This document shows positions 4,283 through 10,734 of a stretch of DNA of 12,931 nucleotides, one piece after another. The stretch is taken from the NCBI GenBank assembly GCA_030637245.1, contig DAOVVI010000007.1:1-12931 (forward strand), read 5' to 3'. Source of the stretch: Cyclobacteriaceae bacterium (GTDB taxonomy: Bacteria; Bacteroidota; Bacteroidia; Cytophagales; Cyclobacteriaceae). The notes under the pieces are model-generated. The model was not told the DNA's origin, did no database searches, and saw only the letters and a program-made list of their open reading frames with translations. The position numbers were made by a program, and so were the translations under genes. Numbering within the stretch: position 1 is the stretch's first letter; each line of letters opens with the position of its first letter.

Positions 4283-5518
4283 TTACTTTTTCGATTTGTA
4301 ATGAAGTGTACTGCAATTTGAATTCACCAAAATTTCATTTGCCATATTTAGTATGTCTGTTTTCTTAACCTTACCGACCAATTCGATTTCTTCATTTACC
4401 AGGTTTGTATTTCCTAATGAATTTGCAACTGACAAATTTATCGATCTGTTAAGCAATTCGGTTTCAGAAAAATAAGTTGAAGACACAGCCTGATTAATAA
4501 CCTTTTCGACCTCAGTTTCTTTTAAATTATTTTTTAGTAAGTCAATTTCATCTACGATACGTTTTTCCGCATCTACAATATCAATATCAGGATTTACTTT
4601 CCCGGATATAATCAATAATCCCGGATCGGCTGAGCCTGTAATATAGGAATTGATGTCGTTAAATACTTTCTTGTCTTTTACCAGGCTTTGGTAAAGTCTG
4701 GAAGATTTTCCTCTCCCGAGTAAATCGCTTAGCAGGTCAGCAGTTATGTATTTTTTATTAATTCTTCCAGGCATATGATATACCTTGTAGATCGAATTGA
4801 GAGGTACGTTTGCATCAATTTCTAAAAACCTTGATGAAGTTTGCCGAGGTTCAGAGGTAATTTGATCATGCCCGTTTTGATTAGCCGGAATATTTCCAAA
4901 CCACTTTTTTGCAAGTTCATAAGTGTTTGTTGGGTCAATATTTCCCGATATTGTTAGCACAGCGTTATTTGGTGCATAATGTTTTTCGTGAAATTCCCGA
5001 ACATTTTTCAAGGAAGCTTTCTCTATATGGCTTATTTCCTTACCAATTGTTGGCCACTGGTAAGGGTGGACATGATAGGCCAATGGCAGGAGTTTTAACC
5101 ATACATCACCATAAGGGACATTCAGATATCGCTGTTTGAATTCTTCAACTACTACTTTTTTTTGAGTTGCCAGATTTTTTTTATCCAAATTCAAAAATTG
5201 CATTCTGTCCGATTCTACCCACAATGCAGTTTCAATATTTTCCGCACTTAATATGATATAATAGTTGGTAATATCCGTATTGGTAAAAGCATTGTTTTCA
5301 GCGCCTGCTTTCTGTAAATGTTTATCATAATCCGGTACATTTTTCGATCCTCCGAACATTAAATGCTCAAATAAATGAGCGAATCCAGTCCTTCCCGGCT
5401 GTTCATTTCTCGAACCAACTTTATACAAAATATTTACAACAACTAATGGAGCGCTTTTATCAACATGGGTAATCAATGTTAAACCATTGGATAGTAAATG
5501 TTCCTGATATTTAATCAT
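4283..5518 (-). CDS. M16 family zinc metallopeptidase (pitrilysin/insulinase-like)
   Basis: A 411-residue protein with one M16 N-terminal catalytic half and one C-terminal half, the usual size of the short two-domain M16 peptidases. The inverted zinc motif HLFEH is at 48-52 within GFAHLFEHLMFGGSKN. The third ligand is expected at about E126 in VVVEEFKQR, and the NNAFTNTDITNYY block (about 75-87) is also typical. Residues from about 190 to the end fit the M16 C-terminal domain. There is no obvious signal peptide, so it is predicted to be cytoplasmic, where such enzymes degrade or process peptides. The start is the ATG at 5518. It is the first gene of a probable operon with the WbqC gene. A TAnnTTTG-type element (5535-5542) lies just upstream. 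Confidence 0.92.
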   Translation of the reverse strand: MIKYQEHLLSNGLTLITHVDKSAPLVVVNILYKVGSRNEQPGRTGFAHLFEHLMFGGSKNVPDYDKHLQKAGAENNAFTNTDITNYYIILSAENIETALWVESDRMQFLNLDKKNLATQKKVVVEEFKQRYLNVPYGDVWLKLLPLAYHVHPYQWPTIGKEISHIEKASLKNVREFHEKHYAPNNAVLTISGNIDPTNTYELAKKWFGNIPANQNGHDQITSEPRQTSSRFLEIDANVPLNSIYKVYHMPGRINKKYITADLLSDLLGRGKSSRLYQSLVKDKKVFNDINSYITGSADPGLLIISGKVNPDIDIVDAEKRIVDEIDLLKNNLKETEVEKVINQAVSSTYFSETELLNRSINLSVANSLGNTNLVNEEIELVGKVKKTDILNMANEILVNSNCSTLHYKSKK

Positions 5519-5534
5519 AATTTAATTGAATGCC

Positions 5535-5542
5535 CAAAAATA
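5535..5542 (-). promoter_or_regulatory. Possible -7 element for the M16 peptidase gene
   Basis: Read on the minus strand this is TATTTTTG, an exact match to the Bacteroidota -7 consensus TAnnTTTG, 16 bp before the ATG. No TTG-type -33 element sits at the usual distance. The 5' leader would be only about ten nucleotides, so this remains tentative. Confidence 0.35.
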
Positions 5543-5558
5543 CAACTAACATGATTAA

Positions 5559-5585
5559 TTCAGTCTCCCAAGAAGCGAGTTTTTT
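5559..5585 (+). repeat. Intergenic repeat motif, copy 1
   Basis: The segment containing TCCCAAGAAGCGAG matches 10754-10780 at most positions, allowing one single-base gap; both share CCAAGAAGCG flanked by CAGT on the left and GTTT on the right. The two copies have the same orientation and lie in two unrelated non-coding gaps, which suggests a dispersed intergenic element. Two short copies alone cannot prove this. Confidence 0.4.
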
Positions 5586-6088
5586 AAAAGTATCCAAAGA
5601 AGTGGGAAGTGGTAGTAGCAGGGAGCAGGAAAAAAGAAAAGGGAGTAAGTTGGTATTAGTAAGTGGTAGTGACACTCTGGTCTGAGAGATGCCACACCTA
5701 AGTTGCAACCAGATGGCATGTAGGGAGTTACCTGCCTCTCTTGCCGGCGAGTATGATTTGTGCATAGGGGAGTAGATAATTGAAGATACTATTATGAGTC
5801 GAAATCTCGGCGCTTGCCTACATTCGGGAGATTGATCGGCAATTCAATGAATTTGTTTGAAAATTAAATTTCTCCGGCAATTTAGCTATTTGATCTTGAT
5901 GTTAATCCACCTGTAGGCAGATGCCTTTTACGCATAAGAAATATATATAAATGATAAAGGTGTAAAGAAAACTGGTTTATCAAACATTCTCGTTTACTTT
6001 ATTGGCTTTAAAAGAATACTATTTTAACGTATATATTACAATTGGTATCTTAAATAGACGTATTTATTATATAAAATATGGGAAATGG

Positions 6089-6096
6089 TATCTTTG
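6089..6096 (+). promoter_or_regulatory. Possible -7 promoter element of the repeat-protein operon
   Basis: TATCTTTG matches the TAnnTTTG consensus exactly. Transcription would start near 6103, giving a leader of roughly 50-70 nt to either candidate TTG start. A clear TTG-type -33 box is missing in the AT-rich upstream DNA. A similar TGGTATCTT occurs at about 6042-6050. Confidence 0.35.
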
Positions 6097-6150
6097 AAAA
6101 GTAAAATGCTTGAATAGATATCCGATTCAATCGATAGACAAAAATTCAAT

Positions 6151-8598
6151 TTGATAAACAGGTTAACATATTTGAGAAAAGGGAGTAATATCCTTTTAAT
6201 TAGCTCATTGGTGTTTTGCGCAATTTTTTGTGTGCAAACAGACCTGTTAGCGCAGTCTAAACCTCCTACAAAATTAAAAACCGAGCAAACTGGATTAAAA
6301 AGGCGCAAGTATTCAGAAAAGGAGAGAAAAAGAAAAAGCAAAGGTAATGTAAAAAGAAAAAATAAAGGATTACAAAAAGCTTATTACAAAAAGAAATCAA
6401 ATCAAACCCAATATCCCGGGAATATCTGGATCGATCCCAAGCCAAAGGATTTTACGGCAATCAAAGAGCGGGTTGAAAAAAATCCTTCCAGGAAAAACTT
6501 AAAAACACAAAAATCAAGAAAATCATATTTTAGAGCGAGTTCGAACCAAAAACATAAAAGTTTTGGTAGTGATGTGATTCTAAAACGGAATTCGAAACTC
6601 AGCAATAAGTACTCTTCAATGGTCATTATATCCAGCAAAGGCAATAGTAAAATTAAATCACCTAAAAGGGATTACAGGAAGTCCAGTAAGAAAATTCAAA
6701 AGCATTCCGGTAATATATTTTTACAACCTGAGGCCAAAAAGAAAGACTATAATGAGATTAAGACCAGAGTTGAAAAAAATCCCGGGAGGTCAATGGCAAA
6801 GCATCGAAACCGGCAAAAAAACAGGACGATCGCCAATACCTCTTTAACACAAACCTACAAGGGCGATATCAATGTGAAAGCGCAAAGAGCTAAAAAACAA
6901 ACCTATAAATATGATTCAAGAGCCATGCAAAAATCATCTGGTAATCTCAGAGCTCAAAGCATAAAATCAGATGAAAAACGAAGGAAGTATTATTCAAAAT
7001 CATCGGCGAGTTTCAAAGGAGACGTTGTATTACCTGCCAGAAATCACAAGAGGTTAAAGTATGAATATATGTCGAAAGCGTCTCAAAAGCATAAAGGTGA
7101 ATTAAAAAGACCAGCGAAAACTCCAGGGCCACAATATACAGCAAAATGGAGTGGTGATTTAAAATCCATTAGTAAGAAGAGTAAAGACCAATGGAAAAAG
7201 TATGAAACCAAAAGGCAGACTCTAAGCGCCGGTGATCTGAATGCCAGGAAAAATAGACAAAAATCCAGAGGTAATCCCCTATTGACGCAAAATATTGGAG
7301 GAATAAAAGTGTATTCTCGAAGTGGGCAAAAAAAACTTATGAAACGGGATTCGAAAATTACCGGCAGTTATTCAGGAAATATCCAGGTGATGTCTAAAAA
7401 ATACAGAAACCAGGAATTGCAGGGTAAATCCATGAATTTCACTGGGGACGAAGGTAATGTCAAAGTACTTTCAAAAAAGAAGCAGGATAAATTTATGTCG
7501 GGGAATTCCAAAACCTCAGGTGCTTATTCCGGAAATATGAGGGCAATGTCAAAAAAAACCAGGAACCAGGAATTGCAGGGTAAATCCATGAATATTACCG
7601 GAGAGGAAGGCAATATGAAAGTACCATCAAAAAAGAGGCAGGATAAATTTATGTCTAGGAATTCCAAAATCACAGGTAGTTATTCCGGGAACTTGAGGGC
7701 AATGTCAAAAAAATCCAGGAACCAGGAATTGCAGGGTAAATCCTTGAATTTTTCTGGAGATGAAGGCAATATGAAAGTACTATCAAAAAAGAAACAGGAT
7801 AAATATATGTCGGAGAATTCCAAAATAACAGGTACTTATGCGGGAAAGATACGAGCCATGTCAAAAAAATCCAGGAACCAGGAATTGCAAGGTAAATCAA
7901 TGAATTTATCCAACTACAAAGGCAATAGACATGTGCTTTCAAAGAGAGCCAGAGACCAGGAGCTGGAGGGTAAATCATTGAACTTATCTGGCTATAAAGG
8001 CAATAGAAGAGTGCTTTCAAAAAAGAGACAGGATAAGTTTATGTTGAGGGATTCCAAAATCACAGGTACTTATTCGGGAAATATAAGGGCAATGTCTAAA
8101 AAATCCAGGAACCAGAAATTGCAGGGTAAATCCTTGAATTTTACTGGAGATGAAGGTAACATAAAAGTTCTTTCAAAAAGGAAACAGGATAGGTTTATGT
8201 TACAGGATTCTCGAATCACCGGCAATTATTCCGGAGATATTGTAGGACTTTCCCCCAAACATCGGAAGCAGGAACTGGAAGGTAAATCTCTTAATATGTA
8301 TGAATACCGCGGTGAAGTCAGGATAAAGAGACATTATGCACGAGACAAATATTTCAGAAACATTTCTGATCGGAATCAGCAGATTATAGGTAATTATCGA
8401 ACTAAAACAAGGCTGACTAAGGACATAGAAGAACAAATTGCCTCTGCAAGAGTTCAAAATTACCAGGGAGGGCCAAAGGCCGGTCTGTTTACCAGGATAT
8501 GGTTGAGCTTGTTTGATAATAGTGGTAAGCTTGAAAAAATGGATGAAAAAACCAAGGAACCAAAATACGATAGTAGAGAATACAAAATTTGGTATTAG
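6151..8598 (+). CDS. Secreted, very basic 26-residue-repeat protein of unknown function
   Basis: I do not recognise this protein. From the first possible TTG (6151) it has 815 residues. A second TTG at 6172 would begin with MRKGSNILLISSL and give a compact signal peptide ending ...LLA|Q, which I find more likely; no ATG is available in frame after the TAG at 6115-6117. The mature protein is dominated by Lys, Arg, Ser, Gly and Asn. Two copies of a longer motif ending RVEKNP(S/G)R lie at residues 89-114 and 186-213. From residue 237 the chain is built from units of 26 residues starting S/E/K-G-N/D-hydrophobic; units 382-719 are thirteen perfect-length copies. A non-repeated tail of about 75 residues ends in YDSREYKIWY. 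No mature cysteines, enzyme motif or further membrane segment is seen. The gene precedes a bacilliredoxin gene by 3 bp. A periplasmic or surface structural role is inference only. Confidence 0.85.
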   Translation: MINRLTYLRKGSNILLISSLVFCAIFCVQTDLLAQSKPPTKLKTEQTGLKRRKYSEKERKRKSKGNVKRKNKGLQKAYYKKKSNQTQYPGNIWIDPKPKDFTAIKERVEKNPSRKNLKTQKSRKSYFRASSNQKHKSFGSDVILKRNSKLSNKYSSMVIISSKGNSKIKSPKRDYRKSSKKIQKHSGNIFLQPEAKKKDYNEIKTRVEKNPGRSMAKHRNRQKNRTIANTSLTQTYKGDINVKAQRAKKQTYKYDSRAMQKSSGNLRAQSIKSDEKRRKYYSKSSASFKGDVVLPARNHKRLKYEYMSKASQKHKGELKRPAKTPGPQYTAKWSGDLKSISKKSKDQWKKYETKRQTLSAGDLNARKNRQKSRGNPLLTQNIGGIKVYSRSGQKKLMKRDSKITGSYSGNIQVMSKKYRNQELQGKSMNFTGDEGNVKVLSKKKQDKFMSGNSKTSGAYSGNMRAMSKKTRNQELQGKSMNITGEEGNMKVPSKKRQDKFMSRNSKITGSYSGNLRAMSKKSRNQELQGKSLNFSGDEGNMKVLSKKKQDKYMSENSKITGTYAGKIRAMSKKSRNQELQGKSMNLSNYKGNRHVLSKRARDQELEGKSLNLSGYKGNRRVLSKKRQDKFMLRDSKITGTYSGNIRAMSKKSRNQKLQGKSLNFTGDEGNIKVLSKRKQDRFMLQDSRITGNYSGDIVGLSPKHRKQELEGKSLNMYEYRGEVRIKRHYARDKYFRNISDRNQQIIGNYRTKTRLTKDIEEQIASARVQNYQGGPKAGLFTRIWLSLFDNSGKLEKMDEKTKEPKYDSREYKIWY
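6415..6492 (+). repeat. RVEKNP motif, copy 1, in the repeat protein
   Basis: It encodes PGNIWIDPKPKDFTAIK followed by ERVEKNPSR (residues 89-114). It is paired with the copy at 6706-6789, and both begin with a GNI segment like the 26-residue units. Confidence 0.7.
6706..6789 (+). repeat. RVEKNP motif, copy 2, in the repeat protein
   Basis: It encodes SGNIFLQPEAKKKDYNEIK followed by TRVEKNPGR (residues 186-213), and is two residues longer than copy 1. The segment between the two copies holds weaker 23-26-residue units. Confidence 0.7.
6859..7293 (+). repeat. Diverged 26-residue units preceding the regular array
   Basis: Six units start at codons for KGDI (6859), SGNL (6937), KGDV (7015), KGEL (7093), SGDL (7150) and AGDL (7228). 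Four are exactly 26 residues, and the others are 19 and 22. They share the G-N/D-hydrophobic start and basic body with the later array but differ strongly from one another, as expected for older copies. Confidence 0.7.
7294..8397 (+). repeat. Tandem 78-bp (26-codon) repeat array, 13 exact-length units plus one degenerate
   Basis: Units begin every 78 bp from 7294 to 8230 with no insertion or deletion, and a degenerate 30-codon unit covers 8308-8397. Two alternating types are seen. Type A is like GNIRAMSKKSRNQELQGKS; type B is like GNMKVLSKKKQDKFM followed by SKITGxY. Alternation B-A holds for units 1-8, then breaks at unit 9 (7918-7995), which joins a B-like VLSK start to an A-like QELEGKS body, and resumes B-A-B-A. 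A-type units share long DNA stretches, so some duplications are recent or kept alike by gene conversion. Confidence 0.92.
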
Positions 8599-8601
8599 GT
8601 A

Positions 8602-8934
8602 ATGAATTGGAGTAGGATTAATTCTGAGGAAGCATTGAGTGAAATGATAAACAAATCGTTTGATGCTCCAAAGGTTTTATTCAAGCACAGTTCCAGGTGT
8701 TCTATCAGTTCGTTGGCATTGAATAAAATGCAAATCGTGTCAAAAAATATAGATTTGTATATACTTGATATTATTGCCCACAGAGATATCTCCAATACAG
8801 TCGCGCAACGGTTTAATGTGATTCACCAATCGCCCCAATTACTAATGATCCATCACGGCAAATGTATTTATAATACATCTCACCTCGGGATCTCGGCATC
8901 TGTTGTGGAGCGACAATTTGGCCTTCTCCAATAG
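8602..8934 (+). CDS. ytxJ: Monothiol bacilliredoxin, YtxJ/BrxC family
   Basis: A 110-residue thioredoxin-fold protein without a signal peptide, hence cytoplasmic. FKHSSRCSISS (about 27-37) matches the 'KHS..CPIS' active site of the YtxJ family, with the reactive cysteine at C33 and no second cysteine in the motif, i.e. CxxS. The SPQLL segment (about 77-81) carries the expected cis-proline. Members of this family (YtxJ, renamed BrxC) are monothiol bacilliredoxins linked to removal of bacillithiol from oxidised proteins, so the host probably makes bacillithiol. The usual proline after the cysteine is serine here. The ATG lies 3 bp after the stop of the repeat-protein gene, so it is probably translated from the same mRNA. 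No clear Shine-Dalgarno sequence is visible. Confidence 0.88.
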   Translation: MNWSRINSEEALSEMINKSFDAPKVLFKHSSRCSISSLALNKMQIVSKNIDLYILDIIAHRDISNTVAQRFNVIHQSPQLLMIHHGKCIYNTSHLGISASVVERQFGLLQ

Positions 8935-9047: not shown

Positions 9048-9764
9048 ATGAGGAAGGTATCAAAATCATTTGTTGGAATAATAATTTTTTTGTGTTGCAT
9101 TCATACTGCACATGCACAGTACAGTGGTAATTATGAATACAGTACAGAAATGATATGGGGTATCACCAAGGCTACAAATAGTGGTTTGATCGGAGGATTC
9201 CTTTTTAAATACTCCAAAGAATTAAAAGAAGATCGATTCCATGGGGGAATTATAGAAATTGTAAATGTAAAGCACCCTCAGGAACAACGCTATTACTCTG
9301 AATCTGGCAATACCTTTATTGGAGGAAAGGAACACTATTTATATAGCTTAAGATTGTCATATTTACGAGAATTCACTTTTTTCAAAAAAGCATCTCAGCA
9401 GGGTGTTCAGGTAAATGGGCTGGTTGCCGCAGGACCAACACTAGGGATTGAAGCTCCATATTATGTTGAAGTAAAAAAAGGGAATCAAACAGTAAAAGAA
9501 CCATATGACCCTAATAAGAATCAGAAAATTTTAGGATCGGGCAACATTCTTCAGGGTATTGGGGAATCTTCCATTGTACCCGGGTTGAATGCCAAAGCGG
9601 GGGTATCCTTTGAATTTGGAACGTTTAAGTCAAATGTTGTTGGGGTAGAAGTCGGATTTCAGGTCGATTTCTTTACCAGGGATATCATACTGATTCCCAC
9701 TACAGAGAATTCCAACATTTTCCCATCGGCCTATGCAACCCTATTTTATGGCTCCAGGCGTTAA
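9048..9764 (+). CDS. Predicted outer-membrane beta-barrel protein
   Basis: A 238-residue protein with a clear signal peptide (MRKVSKSF, a hydrophobic core, HTAHA|Q at about 19-24). The mature part has alternating polar and hydrophobic stretches rich in Gly, Tyr and Phe, such as HYLYSLRLSYLREF, VNGLVAAGPTLGI and VGVEVGFQVDFF. It closes with a terminal strand, SAYATLFYGSRR, ending like many Bacteroidota outer-membrane barrels. The size fits a small barrel of 8-10 strands; the number is not determined. It is probably an outer-membrane protein of unknown ligand. The start is the ATG at 9048, and an upstream ATG at 9034 opens only a five-codon frame. It has its own promoter, so it need not be part of the repeat-protein operon. 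It could instead be a periplasmic beta-rich protein. Confidence 0.75.
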   Translation: MRKVSKSFVGIIIFLCCIHTAHAQYSGNYEYSTEMIWGITKATNSGLIGGFLFKYSKELKEDRFHGGIIEIVNVKHPQEQRYYSESGNTFIGGKEHYLYSLRLSYLREFTFFKKASQQGVQVNGLVAAGPTLGIEAPYYVEVKKGNQTVKEPYDPNKNQKILGSGNILQGIGESSIVPGLNAKAGVSFEFGTFKSNVVGVEVGFQVDFFTRDIILIPTTENSNIFPSAYATLFYGSRR

Positions 9765-9858: not shown

Positions 9859-10734
9859 ATGATAGAATTACCGGCGATTAATGAAAATAAAAAGCAGAAT
9901 ACCAGAAAGCCAGGTTGGTTGAGGGTTAAGCTGCCTGTGGGTAAAGAATATCTCAAAGTCCGGGAGCTTGTCGATAAATACAAACTGCATACAATTTGTG
10001 AAAGTGGCAACTGTCCGAATATGGGGGAGTGCTGGGGCAATGGTACGGCAACATTTATGATTCTCGGAAATGTGTGCACCAGAGCTTGTTCCTTTTGCGC
10101 TGTCGCCACGGGCCGGCCACCTGAGTATGATGAAAAAGAGCCGGGAAGAGTAGCCATGGCAATTAAATTGATGGGTGTAAAACATGCCGTATTCACATCT
10201 GTTAATCGTGATGAACTAAAGGATCGTGGCGCTGAAATCTGGTATCAGACAGTGGTAAAAACAAAAGAATTAAGCCCAGATATTACTATTGAAACATTGA
10301 TTCCCGATGTCAAAAATACATGGGATGCTTTGATTCGAATGATTAGCGGAGGACAGGAAATTGTTTCTCACAATCTGGAAACTGTTGAGCGGTTATATCG
10401 AAGAGTAAGGCCGCAAGGCAACTACTACAGAAGTCTGGAACAAATCAAACGGACTAAGGAATTTGGCAAAAAGACTAAGTCCGGCATCATGGTTGGAATT
10501 GGGGAAAAGGATGAAGAGGTTTTCAAAACCATGGACGATTTGGCAGCTCATGGTTGCGACGTGATGACAATAGGTCAATATTTACAACCCACAAAACTTC
10601 ACCATGAAGTATTGGAATTTGTGCATCCGGACAAGTTTGACCTTTATCGTGAAGAAGGATTGAGAAGAGGTATTTCTTATGTGGAGTCTGGCCCGCTGGT
10701 TCGATCATCCTATCATGCTGAAAAGCATATTTGA
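9859..10734 (+). CDS. lipA: Lipoyl synthase (radical SAM)
   Basis: A 291-residue protein of normal LipA length. It inserts two sulfur atoms into protein-bound octanoyl groups to make the lipoyl cofactor of 2-oxoacid dehydrogenases and the glycine cleavage system. Both iron-sulfur clusters can be read: the auxiliary-cluster cysteines C47, C52 and C58 in [12 protein letters not shown], and the radical SAM cysteines C73, C77 and C80 in CTRACSFC. The C-terminal RSSYHAE holds the conserved serine that contributes to the auxiliary cluster. The internal [17 protein letters not shown] and GIMVGIGE blocks are also typical. It acts in the cytoplasm. The start is the ATG at 9859, preceded by an A-rich leader. 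No lipB or lplA is adjacent. It converges with mutS2. Confidence 0.97.

Follow-up and report, generated by a model that had tools for sequence, protein, structure and literature searches.

A predicted exported, lysine- and arginine-rich repeat protein of the Cytophagales with a conserved C-terminal module and lineage-specific repeats

Introduction

Mussel foot proteins adhere through condensates rich in 3,4-dihydroxyphenylalanine (DOPA) and lysine. These eukaryotic proteins are exported, basic, disordered and built from tandem repeats; those cargo proteins of the type IX secretion system (T9SS) that carry repeat arrays, among which we would count the SprB-like adhesins, are exported repeat proteins of Bacteroidota; and solenoid repeats such as the LRR, TPR and ankyrin repeats have a fixed unit length. 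Here we describe a protein that shares the traits of export, basic charge, predicted disorder and repeats of fixed length, together with the size range of the solenoid units, and that is encoded in a stretch of 12,931 nucleotides from a Cyclobacteriaceae bacterium (positions 1 to 12,931 of contig DAOVVI010000007.1, assembly GCA_030637245.1; the whole of this stretch is hereafter the window). The protein, REP, is a predicted exported polybasic repeat protein of 815 residues whose open frame occupies 6151..8598 of the + strand, from a TTG start at 6151 through the stop codon. Unlike the mussel proteins, which it resembles in composition, REP has a conserved C-terminal module. It differs from type IX cargo in that neither REP nor 12 C-terminal pieces of family members matched the NCBIfam models of the type IX C-terminal domain (CTD; we take these to be TIGR04183 and TIGR04131) at E ≤ 1. 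It differs from the solenoid repeats in having few hydrophobic residues and no predicted fold, and the whole protein gave no Pfam match to LRR, TPR, ankyrin, RHS/YD or CarboxypepD at E ≤ 0.1.

Judged from its sequence, REP is a fast-evolving, exported protein of the Cytophagales in which a C-terminal module is conserved, the repeats are specific to each lineage and the positive charge is strong. It belongs to a Cytophagales family for which neither Pfam nor NCBIfam has a dedicated model, a novelty judged from the sequence libraries searched, and which usually occupies one locus per genome. A curiosity in one metagenome-assembled genome thereby becomes an unnamed protein family in an order of environmental bacteria.

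Conserved and variable parts of the protein

The first 34 residues of REP (6151..6252, + strand) read by eye as a signal peptide that ends in LLISSLVFCAIFCVQTDLLA and is followed by Q, with cleavage expected near A34/Q35 and no cysteine at the cleavage site. The TTG start coincides with the equivalent start residue in several of the 20 relatives found by protein search (P0002, P0006, P0013 and P0020), the others being called elsewhere. The composition is strongly basic (K+R 24.9 %, D+E 8.1 %). At the other end of the protein lies the C-terminal module, comprising the last 130 residues and the stop codon (8206..8598, + strand), which profile searches trace across the order (alignments A2, 27 rows, and A5, 53 rows) and which in REP ends E-P-K-Y-D-S-R-E-Y-K-I-W-Y. 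In the A2 alignment the P, Y, E, I and W of the tail motif P-x-Y-D-x-x-E-x-x-I-W are invariant (27/27) and the D is nearly so, and most other members have K before the P where the window has E. In the wider A5 alignment only E and W are invariant (53/53), with P and Y kept in at least 90 %; departures from the motif occur, for example, in L112, L120, L126 and L135.

The repeats between the signal peptide and this module are lineage-specific. Units of 26/52 residues characterize the window's genus; in other lineages the 26-residue array is nearly absent or is replaced by repeats of about 16, 18–19, 36–38, 43 or 48 residues. The charge, by comparison, is kept: net charge per residue ranges from +0.02 to +0.23 (mean +0.14) and pI from 9.47 to 11.57 (median 10.36) in 60 members, none of which has a cysteine in its mature part (0/60; 60 residues dropped), these composition counts being biased by collection of the members through the tail motif and a K+R floor of 15–16 %. 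A control with no composition filter, using a C-terminal profile itself built from collected members, found 68 distinct open reading frames (ORFs) with K+R of 16.9–31.0 % (mean 23.3 %). A simple hydrophobicity rule recognizes a signal peptide in 47 of the 50 ORFs that have an upstream stop, the three it fails to recognize being one false member, one broken gene and one masked stretch. The tail-motif rule admitted one false member, L063 (155 residues), which is still among these 50 but is left out of the 60 above and of the 59 used for the neighborhood counts below. REP itself has the traits of the family: tail module, predicted signal peptide, high K+R, a cysteine-free mature part and the gene ytxJ directly downstream.

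Close relatives also share an N-terminal block around YPGNIWIDPKPKDFTAIKERVEKNPSRK (6346..6540, + strand; alignment A1, 19 sequences), and the homologue sequences and A1 reveal a second copy of its motif, GNIFLQPEAKKKDYNEIKTRVEKNPGR, at 6703..6792 (+ strand). The duplicated block, G-N-I-x...K-D-[FY]-x-x-I-K-x-R-V-E-K-N-P-x-R, has copies about 97 residues apart and is kept in close relatives.

Distribution of the family

A search with REP alone gave matches in 10 genomes out of 59, a set comprising the window's own and those of relatives, and a first scan of contigs with this one protein found no relative, after which alignment A1 found 11 loci, with record titles naming Cytophagales, Cyclobacteriaceae, Bacteroidia or Bacteroidetes. 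Within the window's family, A1 matched 32 of 295 genomes. Profile A2, built from the last 130 residues, matched 72 of the 291 order genomes searched and 4 of 295 of the class, all four in the window's family; profile A5 (53 rows) matched 93 of the 291 order genomes, in 54 of 116 genera and under 14 family labels (f1, f3, f5, f7, f9, f10, f12, f14, f15, f16, f17, f19, f20 and f22), and 4 of 395 class genomes, the same four as A2, all in f1, the window's family. The window's own genome is included in all these counts, and the window, a row of both profiles, scores E 2.1e-42 with A2 and 1.7e-34 with A5. The A5 matches in f14 and f19, and part of those in f15 and f22, have E values of only about 1e-3 to 1e-10; few of these weak matches were read as ORFs. 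Repeat-only searches miss much of the family, and most members outside the genus are reached only with profiles. Even profiles may miss members, as with one in G008 that is known by position and escaped the A1 search.

Three members deserve individual mention. The complete genome G366 (4,433,218 bp) carries a 337-residue member followed at once by ytxJ and then by an outer-membrane-type gene and lipA. In L026 (G006:C121:76264-78395) the matched stretch contains the in-frame stops TGA and TAG, and the gene is broken or misassembled in that metagenome genome. The N-terminal part related to REP in P0020 runs into PF02518, PF00072, PF00165 and PF12833 (precomputed Pfam), domains of the sensor kinase, response regulator and AraC types; the sequence may be a chimera that arose in assembly or gene calling.

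The 26-residue repeat array

A preliminary description of this DNA, made from the letters, had proposed a secreted basic protein with 26-residue repeats in perfect register, and the signal peptide, the composition and the periodicity of REP bear it out. Sixteen anchor glycines, at residues 383, 409 and so on to 773, are separated by 15 intervals of exactly 26, and the BLOSUM autocorrelation of the protein is strongest at lag 52 (1.03), followed by lags 104 (0.51), 78 (0.32) and 26 (0.27). These values lie far above the best shuffled value of −0.31 (50 shuffles, lags 5–119), so the periodicity is not due to chance. The main array (7297..8469, + strand) runs into the C-terminal module and is mostly a 52-residue doublet of type A units, as in GNIRAMSKKSRNQKLQGKSLNFTGDE, and type B units, as in GNMKVPSKKRQDKFMSRNSKITGSYS; their alternation is broken once, by an A-A irregularity at units 7–8, and Tandem Repeats Finder gives a period of 156 bp at 7349-7907. 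The array extends beyond the thirteen 78-bp units first placed at 7294-8307, and the repeating unit is mostly the doublet. Diverged units had been traced back to 6859; they do keep 26-residue steps at Gly 212, 238, 264, 290 and 316 (6784..7098, + strand), but the register is then broken by phase slips, with steps of 19 (Gly 335), 26 (Gly 361) and 22 (Gly 383).

Between like units the mean nonsynonymous divergence (dN 0.15) is below the mean synonymous divergence (dS 0.69; ratio 0.21, from 10 non-independent unit pairs at even unit distance and >75 % DNA identity), consistent with translation of the array and purifying selection on it. A K-K or K-R pair occupies the corresponding position in each of units 1–11 of the 15 compared, a regularity that would suit a precursor cut at dibasic sites into many small peptides. 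By eye, however, we saw no constant dibasic site and no peptide shared between genera, and the conserved part of the protein is the C-terminal module, which a precursor could dispense with; we regard a precursor as extremely improbable.

The 26-residue spacing also reaches beyond the window's genus, since 35 of 49 members outside it (unique tails) have a 26-residue Y/F/W/H-x-G interval in their last 160 residues, against a mean of 0.38 and a maximum of 3 of 49 in 200 shuffles. The unit therefore looks old and would have been amplified in the window's genus.

Predicted structure and disorder

A register fixed over 15 intervals, and a spacing near the C-terminus that is kept across families, could indicate a regular solenoid or fiber, the beta-rich form of which was envisaged in the preliminary description. 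Each 26-residue unit would form one turn, with a YxGxIxV strand and a basic helix, and the turns would stack into a rod. The AlphaFold2 models speak against this, being of very low confidence and strandless both for whole REP (predicted local distance difference test score, pLDDT, 42.7; predicted template modeling score, pTM, 0.19) and for the C-terminal 180 residues (pLDDT 44.5, pTM 0.15), although their alignments are shallow (19 and 12 sequences) and low confidence is not proof of disorder. The C-terminal model contains short helices only, and these recur weakly at steps of 26, 26, 26, 28 and 23 residues, as a solenoid might. A Foldseek search of the whole-protein model against the PDB returned no match at E ≤ 0.001. 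Replacement or near absence of the array in relatives, which have units of other periods, would be surprising for a solenoid, and hydrophobic residues are few (I/L/V/F/M/W 17 % on average in the 60 members). On both models and the Foldseek result we rejected a solenoid or fiber as the leading reading, and we consider it quite unlikely.

Every collected member falls in the disordered region of the charge-hydropathy plot (60/60; 60 residues dropped), and on these predictions REP is probably unfolded. Because the alignments are shallow, it may nonetheless fold on a partner. What we find is neither confident disorder nor a family without the spacing: the models have low confidence, and many relatives retain the 26-residue step close to their C-termini.

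Comparison with domain libraries

The repeat had not been recognized as belonging to any known family, and scans of Pfam, NCBIfam, PADLOC and the PDB agree in finding what appears to be no credible domain in the REP family. Only Big_15 and TxDE are listed by the Pfam scan of whole REP at E ≤ 0.1. The bacterial immunoglobulin (Ig) domain Big_15 (PF20622) scores 48.3 bits for the whole protein, above its curated cut-off of 27, but no single stretch of REP is significant and the best one covers profile positions 6–28 of 82 (23 positions). Against the C-terminal 180 residues of REP the score falls to 21.2, below the cut-off, and the C-terminal pieces of 1 of 12 members give a match. We rejected identity with this Ig domain: the score sums weak repeat matches, the complete domain of about 82 positions is not covered and its strands are not predicted. 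The TxDE match, below cut-off, was taken as noise.

NCBIfam returned no family for REP at E ≤ 1 and, for the 12 C-terminal pieces, seven families, each matched by a single member (best E 0.019); in Pfam, eight diverse members had no family in common. We took these scattered matches of single members as noise, along with PF25498 and PF05357 in L112, which are above cut-off in sum and lack a significant stretch. A sequence search of the PDB with whole REP gave nothing at E ≤ 1; the C-terminal profile gave one match there, at E 0.11, which we likewise took as noise. PADLOC returned no match, and a defense system was rejected on that ground.

Proposed role

We tentatively propose, with slightly less than even confidence and in general terms as to mechanism, that REP is an envelope polycation that binds anionic polymers. 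REP would leave the cytoplasm by the Sec route, remain periplasmic or sit at the surface of the outer membrane, and form an extended chain of short basic helices joined by Y-x-G-x linkers. Through many weak contacts this chain would bind lipopolysaccharide, an anionic polysaccharide, peptidoglycan or extracellular DNA. A specific anchor to a partner would be provided by the C-terminal module. The repeat array would govern nothing beyond reach and valency, and many different basic repeats could therefore serve. That charge and tail are kept while the repeats change freely fits a chain in which composition matters and the tail makes the specific contact, and export together with charge would make anionic envelope polymers the likely ligand. 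A positive charge suited to acidic polymers had been suggested at the outset; the charge is confirmed, and the binding is what we infer from it. If true, this proposal would make REP a clear example, among bacteria, of an exported protein in which selection acts on the charge and a terminal motif despite turnover of the repeats. A bolder version, in which REP represents a new class of envelope polycation, found across one order, with disordered, lineage-swapped basic repeats, in which function would lie in composition and a short C-terminal address and not in repeat sequence, and in which P-x-Y-D-x-x-E-x-x-I-W is a new sorting or docking signal, strikes us as rather doubtful.

The same traits bear on a secreted, condensing adhesive of mussel-foot-like composition, rich in Lys, Arg and Tyr, that would serve in attachment or in gliding slime. 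REP is basic, exported, tandemly repeated and disordered by charge-hydropathy, and it contains Tyr and Gly, all of which would suit such an adhesive. With no match to the T9SS CTD models, however, it has no known route across the outer membrane, and Y+F+W amount to only 7.8 % on average in the 60 members. We therefore consider an adhesive unlikely.

Several observations weigh against the envelope polycation as well. Neither the coupling to ytxJ, whose product we take to be cytoplasmic, nor the proximity of lipA suggests the envelope, and the converse of the coupling fails: REP is upstream in 1 of 18 ytxJ loci, which come from 25 genomes selected mainly for the absence of a REP match. The outer-membrane-type gene nearby, detected with profile A4, is present in 256 of 291 order genomes, including many with no detected REP; as it is so widespread, we rejected it as a specific partner. 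Profile A5 has no match in the order families f2, f4, f6, f8, f11, f13, f18 and f21. The members are related and their counts are not independent; the collection bias noted above applies as well, and its control used a profile built from the collected members. The low AlphaFold2 confidence may stem from alignments of 19 and 12 rows only, and the whole-protein Big_15 score does exceed its cut-off.

Genomic context

Downstream of REP lies ytxJ (8602..8934, + strand), encoding the monothiol bacilliredoxin YtxJ/BrxC (PF11009, E 3.9e-29; TIGR04019 above cut-off), whose ATG starts 3 nt past the REP stop. Across 27 loci chosen for having both genes, the window included, the distance from REP stop to ytxJ start is −10 to +22 nt, and the upstream gene is always a basic protein. 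Directly downstream of REP, ytxJ is found in 50 of the 59 members not fetched through ytxJ and is missing there in 9; L135, which was fetched through it, is excluded. This adjacency, the nearness of lipA in many members and an E1 dehydrogenase-like gene in one genome could suggest a cytoplasmic-redox or lipoate-linked role. The frequent signal peptide, the members without an adjacent ytxJ and the many ytxJ genes without REP argue otherwise, and the ytxJ link lacks a ready explanation in a protein with no cysteine in its mature part; we hold such a role to be very unlikely.

Further downstream follow a predicted exported outer-membrane-type protein (9048..9764, + strand; by eye, its Pfam match being below cut-off), which is syntenic and not specific to REP, and lipA, for lipoyl synthase (9859..10734, + strand), named by eye from its ORF and its synteny as a conserved flank. 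Divergent genes lie upstream, namely clpC (by eye), wbqC and an M16 peptidase (4283..5518, − strand; PF00675/PF05193), the last a conserved flank by synteny. This order is seen where contigs reach far enough, both within the window's genus and farther away, for example at L067, L068 and L069.

At L109:4099-6412, in genome G366, an E1 2-oxo-acid-dehydrogenase-like ORF and one small lipoprotein-like ORF (both by eye) separate the repeat gene from the M16 peptidase. In L140 and L141 (family f13) short basic ORFs with signal peptides lie upstream of ytxJ and, by eye, lack the tail motif; they may be very diverged relatives or replacements. In the window, a 632-bp gap (5519-6150) separates the divergent M16 gene from REP.

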